This document shows, piece by piece, positions 45,759 to 53,431 of a DNA stretch of 64,000 nt. Numbering within the stretch: position 1 is the first letter of the stretch; each line of letters opens with the position of its first letter. The stretch spans positions 62,001 through 126,000 of the forward strand of contig AP021857.1 of the NCBI GenBank assembly GCA_017347485.1, written 5' to 3'. This DNA comes from Candidatus Desulfobacillus denitrificans (GTDB lineage Bacteria > Pseudomonadota > Gammaproteobacteria > Burkholderiales > Rhodocyclaceae). The position numbers and the translations under genes were made by a program. The notes beneath the pieces are model-generated. The model was given only the letters and a program-made list of their open reading frames with translations. It made no database searches and was not told the DNA's origin.

Positions 45759-46192
45759 TGGGCGCAACCGCCGCCGAGTTCGAGCAGCTCTACAGCGGCC
45801 GCCTGTGGAGCCTGCTGTCCTGGCAGCAGCTCTCCGACTTCTGGGCGCGCATCGATCGCGGCGCCGGCTGGTATCTCTATGCGGTGGGCGAGCCGCCGCC
45901 GGCGGCGCCGGCGACGGCGGAAGAGGTGGAACGCTTCCTCGCCGAGACCGACGCGCTGCTGCGCAAGGAGCACCATCACGACTACTGCGGCATTGTCTAC
46001 GCCGACGACCTCGAAGCGCCGCGCATCGTCAAGATCTACGACCCGAACAACCTCGGCGTCTCCTGCGGCTTCAGCAAGAACCCGCCGCCGCCCGGCTGGA
46101 TCATGAGCCGCGTGCCGCCCGTCGAACTGCAACGCGCCGGCCCCCTGCCGGAATCCCGCAAGCGCTGGTGGCGCAGTCTCCTTGGCGCCTGA
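45758..46192 (+). CDS. Conserved hypothetical protein coupled to ilvD
   Basis: A 144-residue soluble protein. It is rich in Trp (LWSLLSWQQLSDFWARIDRG, seen as LSWQQLSDFW) and contains HHHDYCGIVYADDLEAPRIVKIYDPNNLGVSCG, where the histidine cluster HHHDYC could bind a metal. The start ATG 45758 overlaps the ilvD stop (TGATG), so co-translation is likely. I do not know its function; position suggests a link to branched-chain synthesis or to its iron-sulfur enzyme, but this is a guess. Confidence 0.75.
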   Translation: MGATAAEFEQLYSGRLWSLLSWQQLSDFWARIDRGAGWYLYAVGEPPPAAPATAEEVERFLAETDALLRKEHHHDYCGIVYADDLEAPRIVKIYDPNNLGVSCGFSKNPPPPGWIMSRVPPVELQRAGPLPESRKRWWRSLLGA

Positions 46193-46273
46193 GGGCAGAT
46201 CGTCCTTGCTTCGCTCCGCTTCCGGGTCTAGGATGATGGCATTAGACTGATAATCCGCGCGCCAGGCTCGCGC

Positions 46274-46336
46274 GGTCAGACCCCGACGGCAGGCTCGCCG
46301 CCGGGTTGCCAAAGGCAAAGGAGGGGGGTCTGATCC
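46274..46336. repeat. GGTCAGACCCC inverted repeat
   Basis: GGTCAGACCCC (46274-46284) and GGGGTCTGATCC (46325-46336) form a long stem with inner GC-rich pairing (GGCAGGCTCGCCGCC). It lies in the leader before the exported-protein cluster and resembles the dispersed GGGGTCTGA repeats seen in many proteobacterial genomes. Confidence 0.5.
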
Positions 46337-46374
46337 AAAGTCCGCTTCGGTCAGGCGGGTGCGCGTGCGCAAGG

Positions 46375-48090
46375 TTGCGACAGTGTGCGCTGCCGGTGAT
46401 CGTATTGGGCCTGGCCAGTTCTTCGGCAAGGGCCGGCACCCAGTTCTCCGACAACTCCACCGTGCTGTCCCAATTCGCCCAGGCTTCCGGCGCGCCCGCG
46501 CCTCGGCTCGCCCCGGACGAAGACGGCGCGACCAGGATCGAATGGCACGGCGGCGCCACGGTCGATTTCTATTCGCGCAGCGCCAGCGGCGGCGCGACCC
46601 TGACGCCCTACAGCGGCGGCCACTTCCACCGTATCGGCATGCAAAGCGACCTGCGCGGAACGGCGTCCGAGGGCGATGTGTCCTGGGCGCAGTTCGCCCT
46701 GACCCAGTCCGACGACCCCTCCGCGATCATGCTGGGCAATTCCCAGATCAACACCCTCAACGTCGGCCGCGCCGGGCTGGGCTACCGCGTCGCTTTCGGC
46801 GACGTGGCGGTCAACCATTCCTCGTTCGGCGCCAACCTGCCGCTGCGCGGCCTGCTGGCGCAGCGCTACTTCGGCCAGACCCTGGTGTCGGCCTCGGCCG
46901 GCGTCATTGCCGAAAGCTGGGAAGCGCTGGCCGACCAGGGACGGCGGCGCATGTTCCTGAAGAACGCCTACGCCCTCAAGGCCGAATCCTCCTTCGGCCA
47001 GAATCTCCAGGCCTACGCCACGGCGCAGGGCTACCGCGAGGACGGCGACTCGGTCGGCGCCAATGTCCTGGCACAGGTGCCTTCGTCGGGCAGCACGGCC
47101 ACCGCCGGATTGAACTGGCGCGAGGGGCGGTATTACCTTCAGGCAGAGGGCGGGCTCAGCCGCTACGGCGAAAAGGGGCTGGACGGCCACCGTGACCGGG
47201 CGCTGATCGTCGACGGCGGCTGGCAGGGCGACAAGCTCGGCCTGCGTCTCGGCCATCACGATCTGGGGCGCTACTACGCCAGCCTGTCGGGACTCGCCGG
47301 CGCCGGCATCCGCGAGACCTACGCCAACGCCAGCTGGCAGGCGGCCCAGTGGATGAGCCTGACCGGAGACGTGCGCCGATCGGAAAACCGGATGGCGGCG
47401 CCGCCCGTGCCGCCGCCGCCGCCCACCATCCCGCCGACACCGGTCATGCCTTACATCCCGTTCATCGGCAAGACCGAGGCCGCCAGCCTGCGCGCGCAGA
47501 TCAATTTTCCCAGCGTGCCCGGCCTCGGGCTCGGCCTGAGCGCCGGCGAATCGCACGGCAAGAGCAGCGGCGGCGCCAGCAACCGCAGCCAGAATCAGGG
47601 CGCGACCCTGAGCTATGCGGCGATGGCCTGGAACGCCTCGCTCGGCTACCAGAACAGCAAGCAGTCGAACAGCGTCACTGCCGGATCCGACAGCCGCACG
47701 GATACCTGGTCCGCCAGCTACGGGCGCAACTGGAGCGATGCCACCGACGTGGTGCCGGCCTCCTGGACGCTGAATGCCACCGCAACAGCCAGCACCCAGC
47801 GCCAGCACCTCGAAACCGGTGCAACCGCCGCCCTGAACACCCTCAATCTTGTGATCAGCGGGGAACGGCAGCCCTGGGGCCGCCTGAGCGCGATTCTCGG
47901 CGGCAGCCGTGGCCATGACGCGACCGGCGGCGGCCTGCGCCAGTATTGGTACCAGCTTGACGCCGGGCGGGCGCTCGGCCAGCGCGGCGGCCTCCGCCTC
48001 TACCTGCGCGGCACCAGCAGCTTCCAGGATCGCGCCGCCATCGCCTGGCGCGACCGCCTGGCCGGCATCCAGTTGAGCTACGCCTTCTGA
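46375..48090 (+). CDS. Probable outer-membrane beta-barrel protein
   Basis: From TTG 46375 this is 571 residues with a signal peptide (RQCALPVIVLGLASSSARA, cut before Gly). Another TTG at 46306 is in frame; neither has a clear ribosome site. The mature protein is a succession of amphipathic strands with alternating hydrophobic residues and aromatic girdles, ending LSYAF, the terminal aromatic typical of outer-membrane barrels. A proline loop (PPVPPPPPTIPPTPVMP, about 345) probably faces outside or links two parts. No family recognised. It is the first of five exported-protein genes. Confidence 0.75.
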   Translation: MRQCALPVIVLGLASSSARAGTQFSDNSTVLSQFAQASGAPAPRLAPDEDGATRIEWHGGATVDFYSRSASGGATLTPYSGGHFHRIGMQSDLRGTASEGDVSWAQFALTQSDDPSAIMLGNSQINTLNVGRAGLGYRVAFGDVAVNHSSFGANLPLRGLLAQRYFGQTLVSASAGVIAESWEALADQGRRRMFLKNAYALKAESSFGQNLQAYATAQGYREDGDSVGANVLAQVPSSGSTATAGLNWREGRYYLQAEGGLSRYGEKGLDGHRDRALIVDGGWQGDKLGLRLGHHDLGRYYASLSGLAGAGIRETYANASWQAAQWMSLTGDVRRSENRMAAPPVPPPPPTIPPTPVMPYIPFIGKTEAASLRAQINFPSVPGLGLGLSAGESHGKSSGGASNRSQNQGATLSYAAMAWNASLGYQNSKQSNSVTAGSDSRTDTWSASYGRNWSDATDVVPASWTLNATATASTQRQHLETGATAALNTLNLVISGERQPWGRLSAILGGSRGHDATGGGLRQYWYQLDAGRALGQRGGLRLYLRGTSSFQDRAAIAWRDRLAGIQLSYAF

Positions 48091-48146
48091 ATGGCGTCAA
48101 CCCGCGGCCGGCCGCCCCGTTTATCGATTATGCATAAGGGAAACTC

Positions 48147-48983
48147 ATGAACGCCGCCCTGCCGCTCCTGCTCCTCGGCCTGCTGCTGGCCGCCCCCGCC
48201 GGGGCGCAGCCCGCCGTGCCGGCGCAGTCCGCCCAGGTTGCCGGCTTCGAGGACATGAAGGCGGCGCGCACGGCCCTCGACGAACTGATCCGCGCCTACG
48301 AGACCGGCGACGTCGGCCTGATCCAGTCGCGCCTCGATCCGGGCATGATCGGCTACCAGCGCTTCATCGACGGCCTGCGCCGCGACACGACCGCCCTGAA
48401 GCAGATCCGCCTGCATCTGTTCGAAGCCAACGTCACCGCCGGTCCCGACGTGACGATGATCGAGGCGGCCTGGGAGAAGCGCTTCTTCGGTGTCGCCGAC
48501 TTCACGCCGGGTCTCTTCCGCGGCCGCAGCACTTTCCTCATGCACCGTGCCAAAGAGGGCTGGCGTCTGGCTGCCGTCTCCGGCGACAACCCCTTTTCCA
48601 GCGAAGCGGGCGCGCTGGCGACGCTGTCGGTGATGCCCGCCGCCCTGCCCCTGGGCAGCCTGGCGCCCTGCCCGGGCGCGGCCGTGCCGCTGGCCATCGA
48701 GCTGGTCGATCCCGACCTGGCCGGCCTGAACAGCGTGACGATCGAACTCGCAAGCAGCCAGGGCGACCGCGAGGGCATCGTGCTCACCGCCGTGTCGCCC
48801 GGCCGCTTCAGACGGCCGACGACGCCGGTCTGCCAGGAATTTTTCGCGCCGATTCCGGGCAGCGGCATCGTCGAGGTCAATGCCGCCGCCGTCCCGGCGA
48901 CACTGACTTTTCGCTACATCGACGCCAACCCCGGCGCCAATCGGCCGCCGGCGACGCTGATGCGCGCGGTCGTCATCAGATAA
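48147..48983 (+). CDS. Exported protein with NTF2-like domain
   Basis: A 278-residue protein with a clear signal peptide (PLLLLGLLLAAPAGAQ). Residues about 35-150 look like an NTF2/SnoaL-like alpha-beta barrel (ARTALDELIRAYETGDVGLIQSRLDP, seen as ELIRAYETGDV; FLMHRAKEGWRLAAVSGD), a fold used for small-molecule or protein binding. The C-terminal half is beta-rich with two cysteines. It would act in the periplasm. A 24-bp motif copy with one mismatch is near its 3' end. Confidence 0.72.
   Translation: MNAALPLLLLGLLLAAPAGAQPAVPAQSAQVAGFEDMKAARTALDELIRAYETGDVGLIQSRLDPGMIGYQRFIDGLRRDTTALKQIRLHLFEANVTAGPDVTMIEAAWEKRFFGVADFTPGLFRGRSTFLMHRAKEGWRLAAVSGDNPFSSEAGALATLSVMPAALPLGSLAPCPGAAVPLAIELVDPDLAGLNSVTIELASSQGDREGIVLTAVSPGRFRRPTTPVCQEFFAPIPGSGIVEVNAAAVPATLTFRYIDANPGANRPPATLMRAVVIR
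48887..48910 (-). repeat. 24-bp bipartite motif, copy 10
   Basis: Minus strand: AAAGTCAGTG (last base differs), spacer TCGCCGGG, ACGGCG exact. Confidence 0.7.
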
Positions 48984-49001
48984 CGGGCCGGAGCCATCGA
49001 C

Positions 49002-49457
49002 ATGCGTCTTTGTCTGGTCCCGATCGCATTGGCCCTGGCCGCAAGTGCGGGCGTTCAGGCGCGCAATACGGAAGTAGTGCCGGGCGAGACGCGCACGGAA
49101 AACGTGGACAGGCGGCCTGCAAGTCGAGCGCCAGCCCGGGTCGCGCCGGGTACGAGCGCGCCGCCCGTGACGGGCGCGCCGCCGAACAACACGCAGCCGA
49201 GGTCGCTCCCGGCGGCCGGCTCGATGAACATGCCGCCCCTGCAGCCGCCTCCTGGCCAGTCGCCCAACGGCGGGGCGCTCCCCGGCCTGGTCAGCACCGG
49301 GACGCTGACCGTGACGGGCATGGGCGCCCAGGGCAAGCGCCTGCCGGAAACAATTTCTACAGGCGCCCTGACCGCGATGGGGATAGGCGCGATTGCGATT
49401 GGCTTGCCCAAGACGGTGACGACCGGGCCGCTCGGGGCGACGGGGACTGCCCAATGA
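49002..49457 (+). CDS. Small exported protein with three internal repeats
   Basis: A 151-residue protein with a signal peptide (LVPIALALAASAGVQA). The middle is proline- and alanine-rich and probably disordered (about 35-95). The end carries three imperfect repeats: STGTLTVTGMG, STGALTAMGIG and TTGPLGATGT. Such repeats suggest a small beta structure. No family recognised. It lies 18 bp after the NTF2-like gene. Confidence 0.6.
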   Translation: MRLCLVPIALALAASAGVQARNTEVVPGETRTENVDRRPASRAPARVAPGTSAPPVTGAPPNNTQPRSLPAAGSMNMPPLQPPPGQSPNGGALPGLVSTGTLTVTGMGAQGKRLPETISTGALTAMGIGAIAIGLPKTVTTGPLGATGTAQ

Positions 49458-49506
49458 AGAGTCGCCTGTCATATAACAGCTTGATCGGTCGGTCCAGGAG
49501 GATGAG

Positions 49507-49926
49507 ATGAAACCCAGATTCCCTTTCGTGCTCGCAACCGTCTTGATCGCGCTTCAGGGGCTGATCGGCACCGCTCATGCGGCGCCGATCGTGACTTTTC
49601 AAGTGCCCCTCAAGCTCGACAACCTGCCCCCCGAGATCGCCAAGGCGCGCATCACTTGCTGGATTCTGAAGAAGGACGATTTCGTCGTGGCGGTCAAATT
49701 CGTCGAGGTTCCCGTGGCCGGCGGGCAGTACGCCGGCCCCCCCGTTTCCGTTCCGGTAGACCTGGTCCTGCCCGGCTACGCTGCGGATGCTGCCGGCTGG
49801 AAATGCGCCGTTCAATTGGTGGCATCGAACGGCGCAGTCGGGGTGCCTGACTTCAACGCATCAACGGCAATGTTCAAGGCGAAGGCGGGCACGCCGCTGG
49901 TGATCGAAACCAAGGGATCGTTCTGA
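49507..49926 (+). CDS. Small exported protein, unknown
   Basis: A 139-residue protein with a signal peptide ending HAAP (VLATVLIALQGLIGTAHA). The mature part is a single beta-sandwich-like domain: FQVPLKLDNLPPEIAKARITCWILKKDD and a second cysteine in AAGWKCAVQLVAS, so a disulfide is likely. GGAGGATGAG provides the ribosome site for ATG 49507. Its LPPEIAKARITC wording suggests a protein built of paired strands exposed in the periplasm. Function unknown. Confidence 0.68.
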   Translation: MKPRFPFVLATVLIALQGLIGTAHAAPIVTFQVPLKLDNLPPEIAKARITCWILKKDDFVVAVKFVEVPVAGGQYAGPPVSVPVDLVLPGYAADAAGWKCAVQLVASNGAVGVPDFNASTAMFKAKAGTPLVIETKGSF

Positions 49927-49947
49927 TCCTGCAAGGAGGCCCCCATC

Positions 49948-51318
49948 ATGTCCAGCATCCGCCTATTCGGACCGCACGGAATCCGTGAACCGCGAAGGTT
50001 TGCGCAGACGGCTTCCGCCATCGTCTTTGCACTGTTGGCATCGGCAACGTCCGCTTCCGCACAGGGCGCGCAGCCGGTCACCCTTTCTTTCACGCAGGCG
50101 ACACAGAAATCAATCCAGTCGTCGACGGTCTGGCAAGTCAGGGCGCCTACCGGCAGCCAGATCGTGATCAAGGCCTCGCCCGACCTCGCCAAGCAGACGA
50201 AAAAAATTTCCCTTAAATACGCAGTCTCCGGTACGGGCTGGCAGGAATCGCTCTTCCCGCCCGGCCCGACCGAACTGAGCCTGAATGCCGGCGGGATGGC
50301 CGCCGCTTCGCTCAAGTTCGCCGTCAGCTCGCAGTGGGGGGTGCAGGCCTGCTACGCGTGGACGCCTCCCGGTTCGAATCAGAAGGCCGATGCTTGCACG
50401 GACAGGGTTTATTTCGAGGGCGTGGATCCCTTGAAGACAGGCGCCGAGAAACTCATCACCTTCTACTTCCAGCCTCCAGCGAGCGCCAGCGCCAAGCAGC
50501 CCGGAGCGGTGGTTGCCCAGCCGAGCGGCCAGGAATTGAGGCTGCGCGTCGCCAAGGACGTGCTGATGCGATCGACCACCAAGAAGTTTCGCCTGGTCTG
50601 GACCCCGGGCGGCGCAGCCAGTTTGCCGGCCAGTGAAGCGCAACCGCCCGGCCAGGTAGGCTTCAGCTTCTCCGGCACGGAGAAGCTGGGAGACATCAAG
50701 ATCGACATGATGATGAATGACTGGGGCGAGATCGTCGTGCCCCTCGATTTCGGGCCGCACAAGAACAAGCCGAGTTGGTCCCTGAAGGCGTGCACGGAAG
50801 TCGACTGGTCCGGCGAGATCTGCAGCAGCACCCGCCAGATCGAGCTGGTGCAGACCCCGGTCATCAAGATGTCCGACCAGCCCAAGGATCCCAAGATCGA
50901 TCCGAACCAGAAACTTCCTCCGCCGCCGTCCCCCGGCGGGCAGGGCGGCGGAGGGGGCGGTGGCGGACAGGGCGGTCGGGCAGGCGGCATGCCTGCGGGC
51001 GGCGGGAATGTCCTTGCGCCGCCGCCCCTGCTGGGGGCGCCCGCCGCCGTGCCGAGCCAACCGAATCCTGCCCTGCCTCCCGCGGCCGTGCGACAGGGTT
51101 CGGTGCCCTCACCCATCCTGGCGCCCGCGAGAACGCCGGCCGAAGCCGGGGGAATGGCGCCGGCGACGGACATTCCCGGCTGCGTTCCGCTCACGGGATC
51201 GCCCGGCCAGTATTCCTGCGGCACGCGCGAGGCCCAGGCCGCCTGCGAGCGGCAGCGCGCCGCCGGCGCGCTCGGCATCCGAGCTTGCAACGCCATCGCC
51301 GAAGGCAGACGTCGATAA
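49948..51318 (+). CDS. Large exported protein with Gly/Pro-rich linker
   Basis: A 456-residue protein with a long signal region (FAQTASAIVFALLASATSASA, residues about 18-38). Two beta-rich parts follow (40-170 and 180-300), each with cysteines (VQACYAW; LKACTEVDWSGEICS), then a Gly-run and Pro/Ala-rich linker (about 320-405), and a short cysteine-containing end (IPGCVPLTGSPGQYSCGTREAQ, seen as SCGTREAQAACERQR). The linker suggests spanning of the peptidoglycan or a flexible display. AAGGAGGC precedes the start. No known family. Confidence 0.7.
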   Translation: MSSIRLFGPHGIREPRRFAQTASAIVFALLASATSASAQGAQPVTLSFTQATQKSIQSSTVWQVRAPTGSQIVIKASPDLAKQTKKISLKYAVSGTGWQESLFPPGPTELSLNAGGMAAASLKFAVSSQWGVQACYAWTPPGSNQKADACTDRVYFEGVDPLKTGAEKLITFYFQPPASASAKQPGAVVAQPSGQELRLRVAKDVLMRSTTKKFRLVWTPGGAASLPASEAQPPGQVGFSFSGTEKLGDIKIDMMMNDWGEIVVPLDFGPHKNKPSWSLKACTEVDWSGEICSSTRQIELVQTPVIKMSDQPKDPKIDPNQKLPPPPSPGGQGGGGGGGGQGGRAGGMPAGGGNVLAPPPLLGAPAAVPSQPNPALPPAAVRQGSVPSPILAPARTPAEAGGMAPATDIPGCVPLTGSPGQYSCGTREAQAACERQRAAGALGIRACNAIAEGRRR

Positions 51319-51388
51319 CCTCACCGCTTTCGCGGAATAGTTGACGAATTCAGTCGACTGCTAGCCGGCCGGCGGCTACACTGGGTCC

Positions 51389-53431
51389 ATGCCCAACCGC
51401 CTCGCCGGCGAGACCTCGCCCTATTTGCAGCAGCACGCGGAAAACCCCGTGGATTGGCATCCCTGGGGTGAGGAAGCGCTCACCCTTGCGAAGCGGGAGG
51501 GCCGGCCGATCCTGCTTTCCATCGGCTATTCCGCCTGCCACTGGTGCCATGTCATGGCCCACGAATCCTTCGAGGACGCGGAGGTGGCGGCGGTAATGAA
51601 CCGCCTGTTCGTGAACATCAAGGTCGACCGCGAGGAGCGGCCGGACCTCGACCAGATCTACCAGACCGCCCAGCAGATGCTGACCGGCCGCACCGGCGGC
51701 TGGCCGCTGACGATGTTCCTCACGCCGGACGGCGCGCCCTTCTTCGGCGGCACCTATTTCCCCAAGGCGCCGCGCTACGGCCTGCCCGGCTTCCCCGACC
51801 TGTGCCAGCGCGTGGCGGAAGCCTGGCGCGACAAGCGCGCCGACATCGCACAGCAGAACGGCGAACTGCTCAAGGCGCTCTCGGCCGGCGCCGCCGCCCG
51901 GCCCCTGAGCGGCGCCCTGTCGGCCGCGCCCCTGCAACTGGCGGTCGAACGCGCCGCACAATCCTACGATCCGCAGTTCGGCGGCTTCGGCGGCGCGCCG
52001 AAATTTCCCCACCCGGCCGACCTGGAACTGCTGCTGCGCCGGAACGCCGCGACCGGCGAAGCGCGCTGCGGCGAGATGGCGCTCACGACGCTGCGCCGCA
52101 TGGCCGAGGGCGGCATTTACGACCAGCTCGGCGGCGGCTTCTGCCGCTACAGCGTGGACGAGCGCTGGGCCATCCCGCACTTCGAGAAGATGCTCTACGA
52201 CAACGGGCCGCTGCTGCGCCTGTACGCGGATGCCTGGCGGGTATCCGGCGATCCCCTGTTCCGCCGCGTCGCCGAGGAGACCGCCGGCTGGGTCCTGCGC
52301 GAGATGCAGGCGCCGGAGGGCGGCTACTACTCCTCCCTCGACGCCGACTCCGAGCACGAGGAAGGCAAGTTCTACGTCTGGTCGCGCGAAGAAGTCAGTC
52401 GCCACACCACGGCGGAGGAATATGCCGTGGTCGCCGCGCATTACGGACTGGAACGGCCGGCGAACTTCGAGGGCGCGCACTGGCACCTGCTCGTCGCGCT
52501 GCCGCTGGCCGAGGTCGCCGCGTCACTCGGCAGGCCGCTCGACGAGTGTGAGCGCCTGCTCGCCTCGGCGCGCGAGAAGCTGTTCGCGGCGCGCGAGCAG
52601 CGCATCCGCCCCGGCCGCGACGAGAAGATCCTGGTGAGCTGGAACGCGCTGATGATCGAGGGCATGACCCATGCCGGCCGCGTCTGCTCTCGCTCCGACT
52701 GGCTGGCCTCGGCGCGCCGCGCGCTGGATTTCATCCGCAAGTCGATGTGGCGGGACGGCCGCCTGCTCGCCACGTACAAGGACGGGCGCGCCCACCTGAA
52801 TGCCTACCTCGACGATTACGCCTACCTGCTCAAGGCCGCGCTGGAAATGCTGCAGGCGGAATTCGATGCGGAGCTGCTGGCCTTCGCCGAAGCGCTGGGC
52901 GAGGCCCTGCTCGCGCATTTCGAGGATGCGGCCGGCGGCTTCTGGTTCACCAGCCACGACCACGAAGCGCTGATCCACCGGGTCAAGACGGGACACGACA
53001 GTGCCATGCCCTCGGGCAACGGCGCGGCGGCGTTTGCCTTGCAGCGGCTCGGGCATGTGACCGGCGAAACGCGGTTTCTGGAAGCTGCGGACCGCACCCT
53101 GCGCCTGTACTACCCCGACATGGAGCGCCAGCCTGGGGGATTTGCCACCCTGCTGGCGGCACTGGACGAGGCGATTGTCCCTCCTGCCGTCGTCGTCTTG
53201 CGCGGACCGCAGGACCAACTCGCTGAGTGGAAAAGGAAAATCTCCGGGCGCTATTGGCCCTGGGCGCTGACGCTGGGGCTGCCGGCGCAGGCCGGGACGC
53301 TGCCGCCGGCCCTGAACAAACCGCTGAAGGAGGGTGTCAACGCCTGGGTCTGCTCGGGCGTTACATGTCTTGAGCCGATCGACGATTTCCCTTGTCTTGA
53401 ACGGGTTTGCAAGTCCCCGGAATTGATTTAG
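51389..53431 (+). CDS. Thioredoxin-fold DUF255 protein (YyaL/SPATA20 type)
   Basis: A 680-residue protein. The N-terminal thioredoxin-like domain carries [14 protein letters not shown] (CxxC about 52-55) and [18 protein letters not shown]; the rest is an (alpha/alpha)6 barrel like that of N-acylglucosamine epimerases ([49 protein letters not shown]). The family is widespread but its reaction is not known; redox sensing or sugar processing has been proposed. Full length. It holds a 24-bp motif copy. Confidence 0.92.
52391..52414 (+). repeat. 24-bp bipartite motif, copy 11
   Basis: Plus strand: GAAGTCAGTC (first base differs), spacer GCCACACC, ACGGCG exact. Confidence 0.75.

Follow-up and report, generated by a model that had tools for sequence, protein, structure and literature searches.

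A predicted outer-membrane barrel and its NTF2-fold partner in a five-gene cassette of Candidatus Desulfobacillus denitrificans: a candidate platform for exported proteins

Five consecutive genes for exported proteins in Candidatus Desulfobacillus denitrificans raise the question of whether they serve one envelope function and, if so, which one. A first-pass annotation, made from the letters alone, had taken them for parts of one envelope machine with no recognised family. The latter point holds for the barrel encoded by gene 1 and for genes 3–5: searches of Pfam, NCBIfam and PHROG left the five proteins unnamed except for a sub-threshold SnoaL_3 match in gene 2 (in Pfam, the only other hit was a chance one to DUF4177), and no naming model for the barrel family is present in any of the three collections. 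No homologue of known function was found for the cassette proteins, nor did a literature search for this gene combination return a description. The former point stands in part, in that the genes are gained and lost as a single cassette around an inseparable barrel–NTF2 pair, but one machine made of all five is too strong a claim, as genes 3–5 occur in part of the genus and other partners take their place elsewhere. The window, i.e. the whole 64,000-nucleotide stretch analysed here, represents bases 62001–126000 of a single-contig 3.15 Mb genome whose closest named relatives are Rhodocyclaceae MAGs.

Gene content and chromosomal site of the cassette

Five ORFs, all in one direction, are flanked by a small gene whose end is at 46192 and, on the other side, by a gene with a thioredoxin domain at 51389. 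The features are as follows (window coordinates):

46174..51387: whole cassette; empty-site genomes align up to 46173 and again from 51388 (blastn against L093–L096)
46206..46235, + strand: weak promoter-like stretch, CTTGC-(about 17)-TAGGAT, upstream of the barrel gene and conserved across six aligned cassettes
46330..48090 (46375–48090 if read from TTG), + strand: gene 1, P0001, predicted outer-membrane beta-barrel, about 560 aa mature, core gene
48147..48983, + strand: gene 2, P0002, exported protein with a predicted NTF2/SnoaL-fold domain (residues 31–153) and a C-terminal Ig-like "DPD" domain, core gene
49002..49457, + strand: gene 3, P0003, Pro-rich and exported, with LPxxVxTGxLTxxGxGAxxxx repeats at the C-terminus, lineage-specific accessory
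49507..49926, + strand: gene 4, P0004, small exported protein containing a single Cys pair, lineage-specific accessory
49948..51318, + strand: gene 5, P0005, exported protein with two similar W/Cys repeats (residues about 44–305), a Pro/Gly linker and a C-terminal 4-Cys tag
51157..51315, + strand: C-terminal tag of P0005, PGC..G.PGQ..C..REA.A.CER.R..G..GI..C, common to the large Cys-rich protein of L019, L020 and L021

The exported, co-directional and closely spaced genes of the first-pass annotation were recovered at about the same coordinates, with gaps of 18–56 bp and a signal-peptide-like N-terminus, judged by eye, on all five proteins. Compared with their orthologues in locus L019, genes 1–5 have dN/dS ratios of about 0.27, 0.21, 0.57, 0.17 and 0.26, respectively; all five ORFs are under purifying selection and are therefore real genes. 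The synonymous divergence from the same locus is 0.39–0.51 for genes 1–4 and 1.17 for gene 5, which makes the cassette itself a mosaic.

The barrel gene is present in 7 of the 16 genus genomes, and a cassette-free site was demonstrated in four others (G005, G007, G009 and G013), where the cassette is absent, both neighbours are kept and only 83–92 bp separate the end points of homology. Since these four genomes retain both flanks, the block is present or absent as a whole, and its place in the chromosome is fixed. Inverted repeats were sought at the left end of the cassette and plasmid-borne homologues were searched for, neither being found. A consensus promoter/terminator scan of the cassette gave no result above chance, and the promoter scan called no consensus sigma-70 site. 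Neither a known type of energy source nor a known type of chaperone is encoded in the cassette.

The barrel gene and its NTF2-fold partner

Translation of gene 1 probably starts at the CTG codon at 46330, a choice based on the GTG that relatives carry in this position behind GGAGG or GGAGGG; TTG codons at 46306 and 46375 are alternative starts. The structural model of P0001 is all-beta and of low confidence (mean pLDDT 48). Its last 210 residues (363–569) form 12 antiparallel strands with a pLDDT of about 60–83, and further strands are placed before residue 363 with low confidence. Nearly all homologues of the barrel terminate in F, Y or L, and distant ones match OMP_b-brl weakly, under its cut-off. 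P0001 thus shows the all-beta strand meander and the terminal aromatic or hydrophobic residue characteristic of outer-membrane beta-barrels, in support of the barrel first proposed, and its location is most likely the outer membrane. The VIA-align matches listed for the model are all outer-membrane barrels; MtrB (6r2q_B) comes first (Z 15.9, 251 residues, 3.9 A), CymA and others being level with it to within 1 Z unit, and the best structural matches also include OprD/Occ-type and TonB-dependent barrels. The top Foldseek matches are ushers (E 5e-5, TM about 0.2). Considering the low confidence of the model, these matches indicate an outer-membrane barrel and nothing narrower. A sequence search of solved structures with the barrel, P0002 and P0005 gave no useful match.

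For P0002, the proposed NTF2-like character was confirmed by fold. Residues 31–153 are predicted to adopt the cone-shaped NTF2 fold (Z up to 11.0 over 104–108 residues), the leading structural matches are all NTF2-like or cystatin-like-fold entries, and the domain resembles NTF2-like, CaMKII-hub and ketosteroid-isomerase structures. The Pfam match to SnoaL_3 (E 9e-4) falls just below the cut-off (20 bits against 22). NTF2/SnoaL folds often bind small molecules.

How tightly are the two genes linked? An order sample of 349 genomes was searched with a barrel profile and then with an NTF2 profile. Nine genomes, from six genera, contain the barrel, and all nine contain the NTF2 partner; the probability of such co-occurrence by chance would be about 5e-17 if the genomes were independent, which they are not, yet six genera agree. 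The reverse search with the NTF2 profile returned the same nine genomes, one more with a strong match (G392) and one marginal match. In G392, a 70% complete MAG, the contig stops exactly upstream of the NTF2 gene, where the barrel would lie. The two genes are adjacent in every complete locus read, which covers the genus, the Burkholderiales loci L035–L041 and L118, L024, and L056/L057, and in the Burkholderiales loci the gene directly after the barrel always carries a P0002-type NTF2 domain. Around this constant arrangement the partner varies: in L036, L037 and L038 a FecR-NTF2-DPD protein comes after a short NTF2 protein, and L039–L041 have a single NTF2 protein with up to four DPD repeats. 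The same arrangement is found with close homology in a Desulfuromonadales MAG (L024), and with remote homology in Desulfobacterota (L056 and L057), where the gene order is barrel, NTF2, NTF2-CARDB-DPD. Neither gene was seen singly in an unrelated context, an occurrence that would have spoken against the proposed unit. Judged by gene content and order, genes 1 and 2 constitute an obligate core pair, inseparable over a wide evolutionary distance.

Exchangeable partners and the C-terminal cysteine tag

By their distribution, genes 3, 4 and 5 are lineage-specific accessories confined to part of the genus. Homologues of P0003 were found only in the window, in L019 and in L017 (36% identity over 55 aa). 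The TGxLTxxGxG motif reported to occur three times in this protein is present, but its third copy is degenerate (TGPLGATGTA). P0004 agrees with its description as a small disulfide domain protein, having 139 aa and exactly two cysteines, and is 85% identical to its counterpart in L019 and 26% to that in L017; genes 3 and 4 together occur only in the window and L019, and in a divergent form in L017. Gene 5 is found in the window, in L019–L022 and in G006. The Gly/Pro linker noted in its product is there, and the 4-Cys tag at its C-terminus is an addition to the first-pass annotation.

This tag is shared (hhalign E 1e-20) with an additional exported protein of 740–795 aa and 31–33 cysteines in L019, L020 and L021, which is absent from the window. 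Among the 16 genus genomes the P0005-type tag is private to the locus, apart from weak chance matches. A genome-wide C-terminal sorting tag was considered and rejected, the weak matches outside the cluster, located for example in the regions of a P-type ATPase and of an ABC transporter, being due to chance. In L037, exported proteins of 1128 aa and about 400 aa share a different C-terminal Cys tag (hhalign E 6e-27) of unrelated sequence. Two lineages (L019/L021 and L037) therefore each have a large exported protein and one of 400–460 aa with a common C-terminal Cys tag after a low-complexity linker. A relation of the large Cys-rich protein to the L024 (L024_872) and L037 (L037_1128) proteins is suggestive only (hhalign E 4e-4 and 1e-3, probability 35% and 20%, respectively).

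Elsewhere, genes 3–5 are replaced by TIG, FN3, CARDB, FecR and OmpA proteins and by S8 subtilases. A TIG-like protein occupies the slot of the large Cys-rich protein in L022, L023 and L017, and L035 encodes a 1864 aa TIG-like and a 673 aa FN3 protein. An S8 subtilase adjoins the barrel in L036, L056 and L057, with PASTA domains in the latter two, and lies three genes away in L024. S8 peptidases are absent from the whole genome to which the window belongs, and the subtilase was rejected as an essential part of the system on this account. The accessories have the look of exported proteins, and domains typical of the surface or envelope (TIG-like, FN3, CARDB, FecR, OmpA or PASTA-subtilase) are present in many of them. 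L039–L041 (g105) contain the core pair only, with no obvious tagged cargo; cargo export is therefore not the function of the core there, unless the cargo lies elsewhere.

Possible functions and comparison with known systems

The locus is one cassette with an obligate core pair, exchangeable partners and a shared tag confined to the locus. The simplest account of a fixed barrel–NTF2 pair accompanied by exchangeable exoproteins, often Cys-tagged or Ig-like, is an outer-membrane platform which exports and/or displays its own co-encoded exoproteins, a reading to which we give about an even chance of being correct. Secretion or surface assembly is accordingly our leading proposal for the function, and an anchoring or uptake role is compatible with the same gene content. 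In the export and display reading, the gene 1 product would be a large outer-membrane pore and gene 2 would supply its obligate exported partner, the NTF2-fold domain docking to the barrel or to clients and the DPD domain reaching outward. In other lineages the gene 2 protein is extended to as many as four DPD repeats, is combined with a FecR or CARDB module, or is joined by a second NTF2 protein. The products of genes 3–5, small repeat or disulfide-bonded proteins, would be the current cargo, which in sister genomes could also include the 31–33-Cys protein with its P0005-type tag. The tag itself may be a docking or anchoring element, marking proteins for the platform to take or hold. Outward transport, the role of the NTF2 domain and docking by the tag are thus proposed parts of this model.

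The main rival is a surface-adhesion complex without export, which we regard as possible and clearly less probable than the platform. The barrel would act only as an anchor, and the NTF2-DPD protein and the Ig, TIG, FN3, CARDB or Cys-rich proteins, exported by other routes, would form an adhesive or matrix layer, processed by an S8 subtilase in some lineages. The recurrence of surface-adhesion-type domains among the accessories and the subtilases next to or near the barrel in four loci (L036, L056, L057 and L024) argue for it, as do passages of PMC10553843 in which CARDB and S8-protease-domain proteins figure among the putative adhesins of sulfate-reducing ANME partners; a very large barrel is however not obviously needed for an anchor, and the genome of the window manages without any S8 peptidase. 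An uptake or diffusion channel is unlikely. Here gene 1 would be porin-like, the NTF2-fold protein a periplasmic accessory that binds a ligand or acts as an enzyme, as many SnoaL/ketosteroid-isomerase proteins do, and the other genes bystanders. This is consistent with the small-molecule binding frequent in such folds and with the CymA, OprD/Occ-type and TonB-dependent barrels matched by the weak model, but genes for transport or catabolism are missing from the cassette, relatives have the NTF2 domain fused to DPD, FecR or CARDB, and large Cys-tagged exoproteins accompany the cassette in sister genomes. A porin-cytochrome-type electron conduit, i.e. an MtrB/PioB-like barrel with partners, is very improbable: MtrB is the first, though tied, VIA-align match and relatives do occur in Desulfobacterota, but there is no MtrB Pfam match, and the lack of a single CxxCH haem motif in the cassette and the accessory proteins checked disfavours it. 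Equally remote is a chance grouping of unrelated genes in one genome, for which the poor conservation of genes 3–5 outside the genus could speak, as the clean single cassette with its empty site argues against it and the inseparable core pair refutes it for genes 1 and 2.

To our knowledge, only a few systems translocate proteins across the outer membrane, and most of them are well catalogued. A barrel family that has no model in Pfam or NCBIfam and is invariably accompanied by an NTF2-fold exported protein, amid fast-changing surface proteins, is a testable candidate for a new one; direct genetic tests are offered by strains with the empty site and by the pairs of tagged cargo proteins. Several hitherto unnamed families of exported proteins, from two phyla, also receive a label. 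More speculatively, and with rather low probability, the cassette could represent a distinct outer-membrane secretion or assembly pathway of Burkholderiales and Desulfobacterota, in which a new-family barrel and its obligate NTF2-DPD partner recognise cargo by short C-terminal Cys tags that co-evolve with the cargo set of each lineage.

Among known systems, the chaperone-usher pathway (FimD/PapC, PF00577) is similar in combining, in one operon, an outer-membrane barrel, a dedicated exported partner and co-encoded exported subunits, but the partner in the cassette has an NTF2 fold and there is no PapD-type chaperone. The usher profile PF00577 has no match in P0001 at E<=10 and none in the genome of the window. 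Kinship with ushers, suggested by the top Foldseek matches and a GD..RG-like motif, was rejected, hhalign against Burkholderiales ushers giving a probability of 0. Two-partner secretion (type V; FhaC, ShlB) also has a barrel and an exported partner encoded side by side; in the cassette, however, the conserved partner is the NTF2-DPD protein, the accompanying proteins change freely, and its proteins have no Pfam match to POTRA, ShlB/FhaC barrel or haemagglutination domains. MtrCAB and related porin-cytochrome systems share the large outer-membrane barrel with exported partners, of which MtrB is the tied best VIA-align match, and differ by the haem motifs and MtrB family match that the cassette lacks. 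As for S8-subtilase-coupled surface systems, S8 is linked to the barrel in L024, L036, L056 and L057 and is absent from the genome of the window. The S8-protease and CARDB adhesins of syntrophic sulfate reducers are alike in their CARDB, S8 and Ig-like repertoire in Desulfobacterota, but the passages of PMC10553843 concerned list single proteins as putative adhesins and do not describe a barrel–NTF2 core. Compared with the defining features of the usher, two-partner secretion and Mtr systems, the cassette is a member of none of them, and would work as an exporter or anchor platform of the same general sort.

Start of the barrel gene and nearby elements

The putative outer-membrane beta-barrel gene P0001, the first of the five cassette genes, probably starts at CTG 46330, within window 46306-46375. 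The cassette-bearing sister genomes have a GTG after the same GGAGG, at the position matching this CTG, and L018, near-identical to the window, likewise carries CTG at the barrel start. The palindrome TCGTGAAtctgngTTCACGA overlaps the barrel start codon in sister genomes (about 6128-6150 in L019, and the equivalent position in L021, L022 and L023) as if it were an operator or hairpin; it has been lost from the window. One copy each of GGTCAGACCC and GGGGGTCTGATCC (window 46274 and 46325) lies either side of the barrel gene start, and these sequences, found once each in the whole window, resemble the ends of a small mobile element.

Barrels of Desulfobacterota

Two loci with remote barrel-NTF2 homologues have a protease gene adjoining the barrel:
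L057 11017-14689, divergent PASTA-S8 subtilase
L056 3561-5927, divergent PASTA-S8 subtilase
In L057, a gene for an ECF sigma factor comes after the subtilase, as does an unnamed ORF of 250 aa. The barrels of L054, L055, L058 and L060 are weakly related (E about 1e-3 to 1e-6), being open frames of about 650-1130 aa that are Ig-like in their N-terminal part and contain a GD..RRG motif.

Neighbours of the NTF2 gene and of the cassette

The truncated NTF2 gene of the MAG G392 adjoins:
L117 1761-3225, toxin-antitoxin-like genes (ParE-like; VapBC-like PIN protein)
In one Burkholderiales genus, the two genomes each have an ATPase-regulator of about 1090 aa close to the cassette; its C-terminal part is transcriptional-activator-like:
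L038 5725-9012
L118 7839-11111
Downstream of the L118 NTF2 gene is:
L118 5442-6065, 207 aa exported protein of GGQxxIxGxxIVLPxxxI repeats
These repeats are reminiscent of the TGxLTxxGxG repeats of the exported cassette protein P0003.
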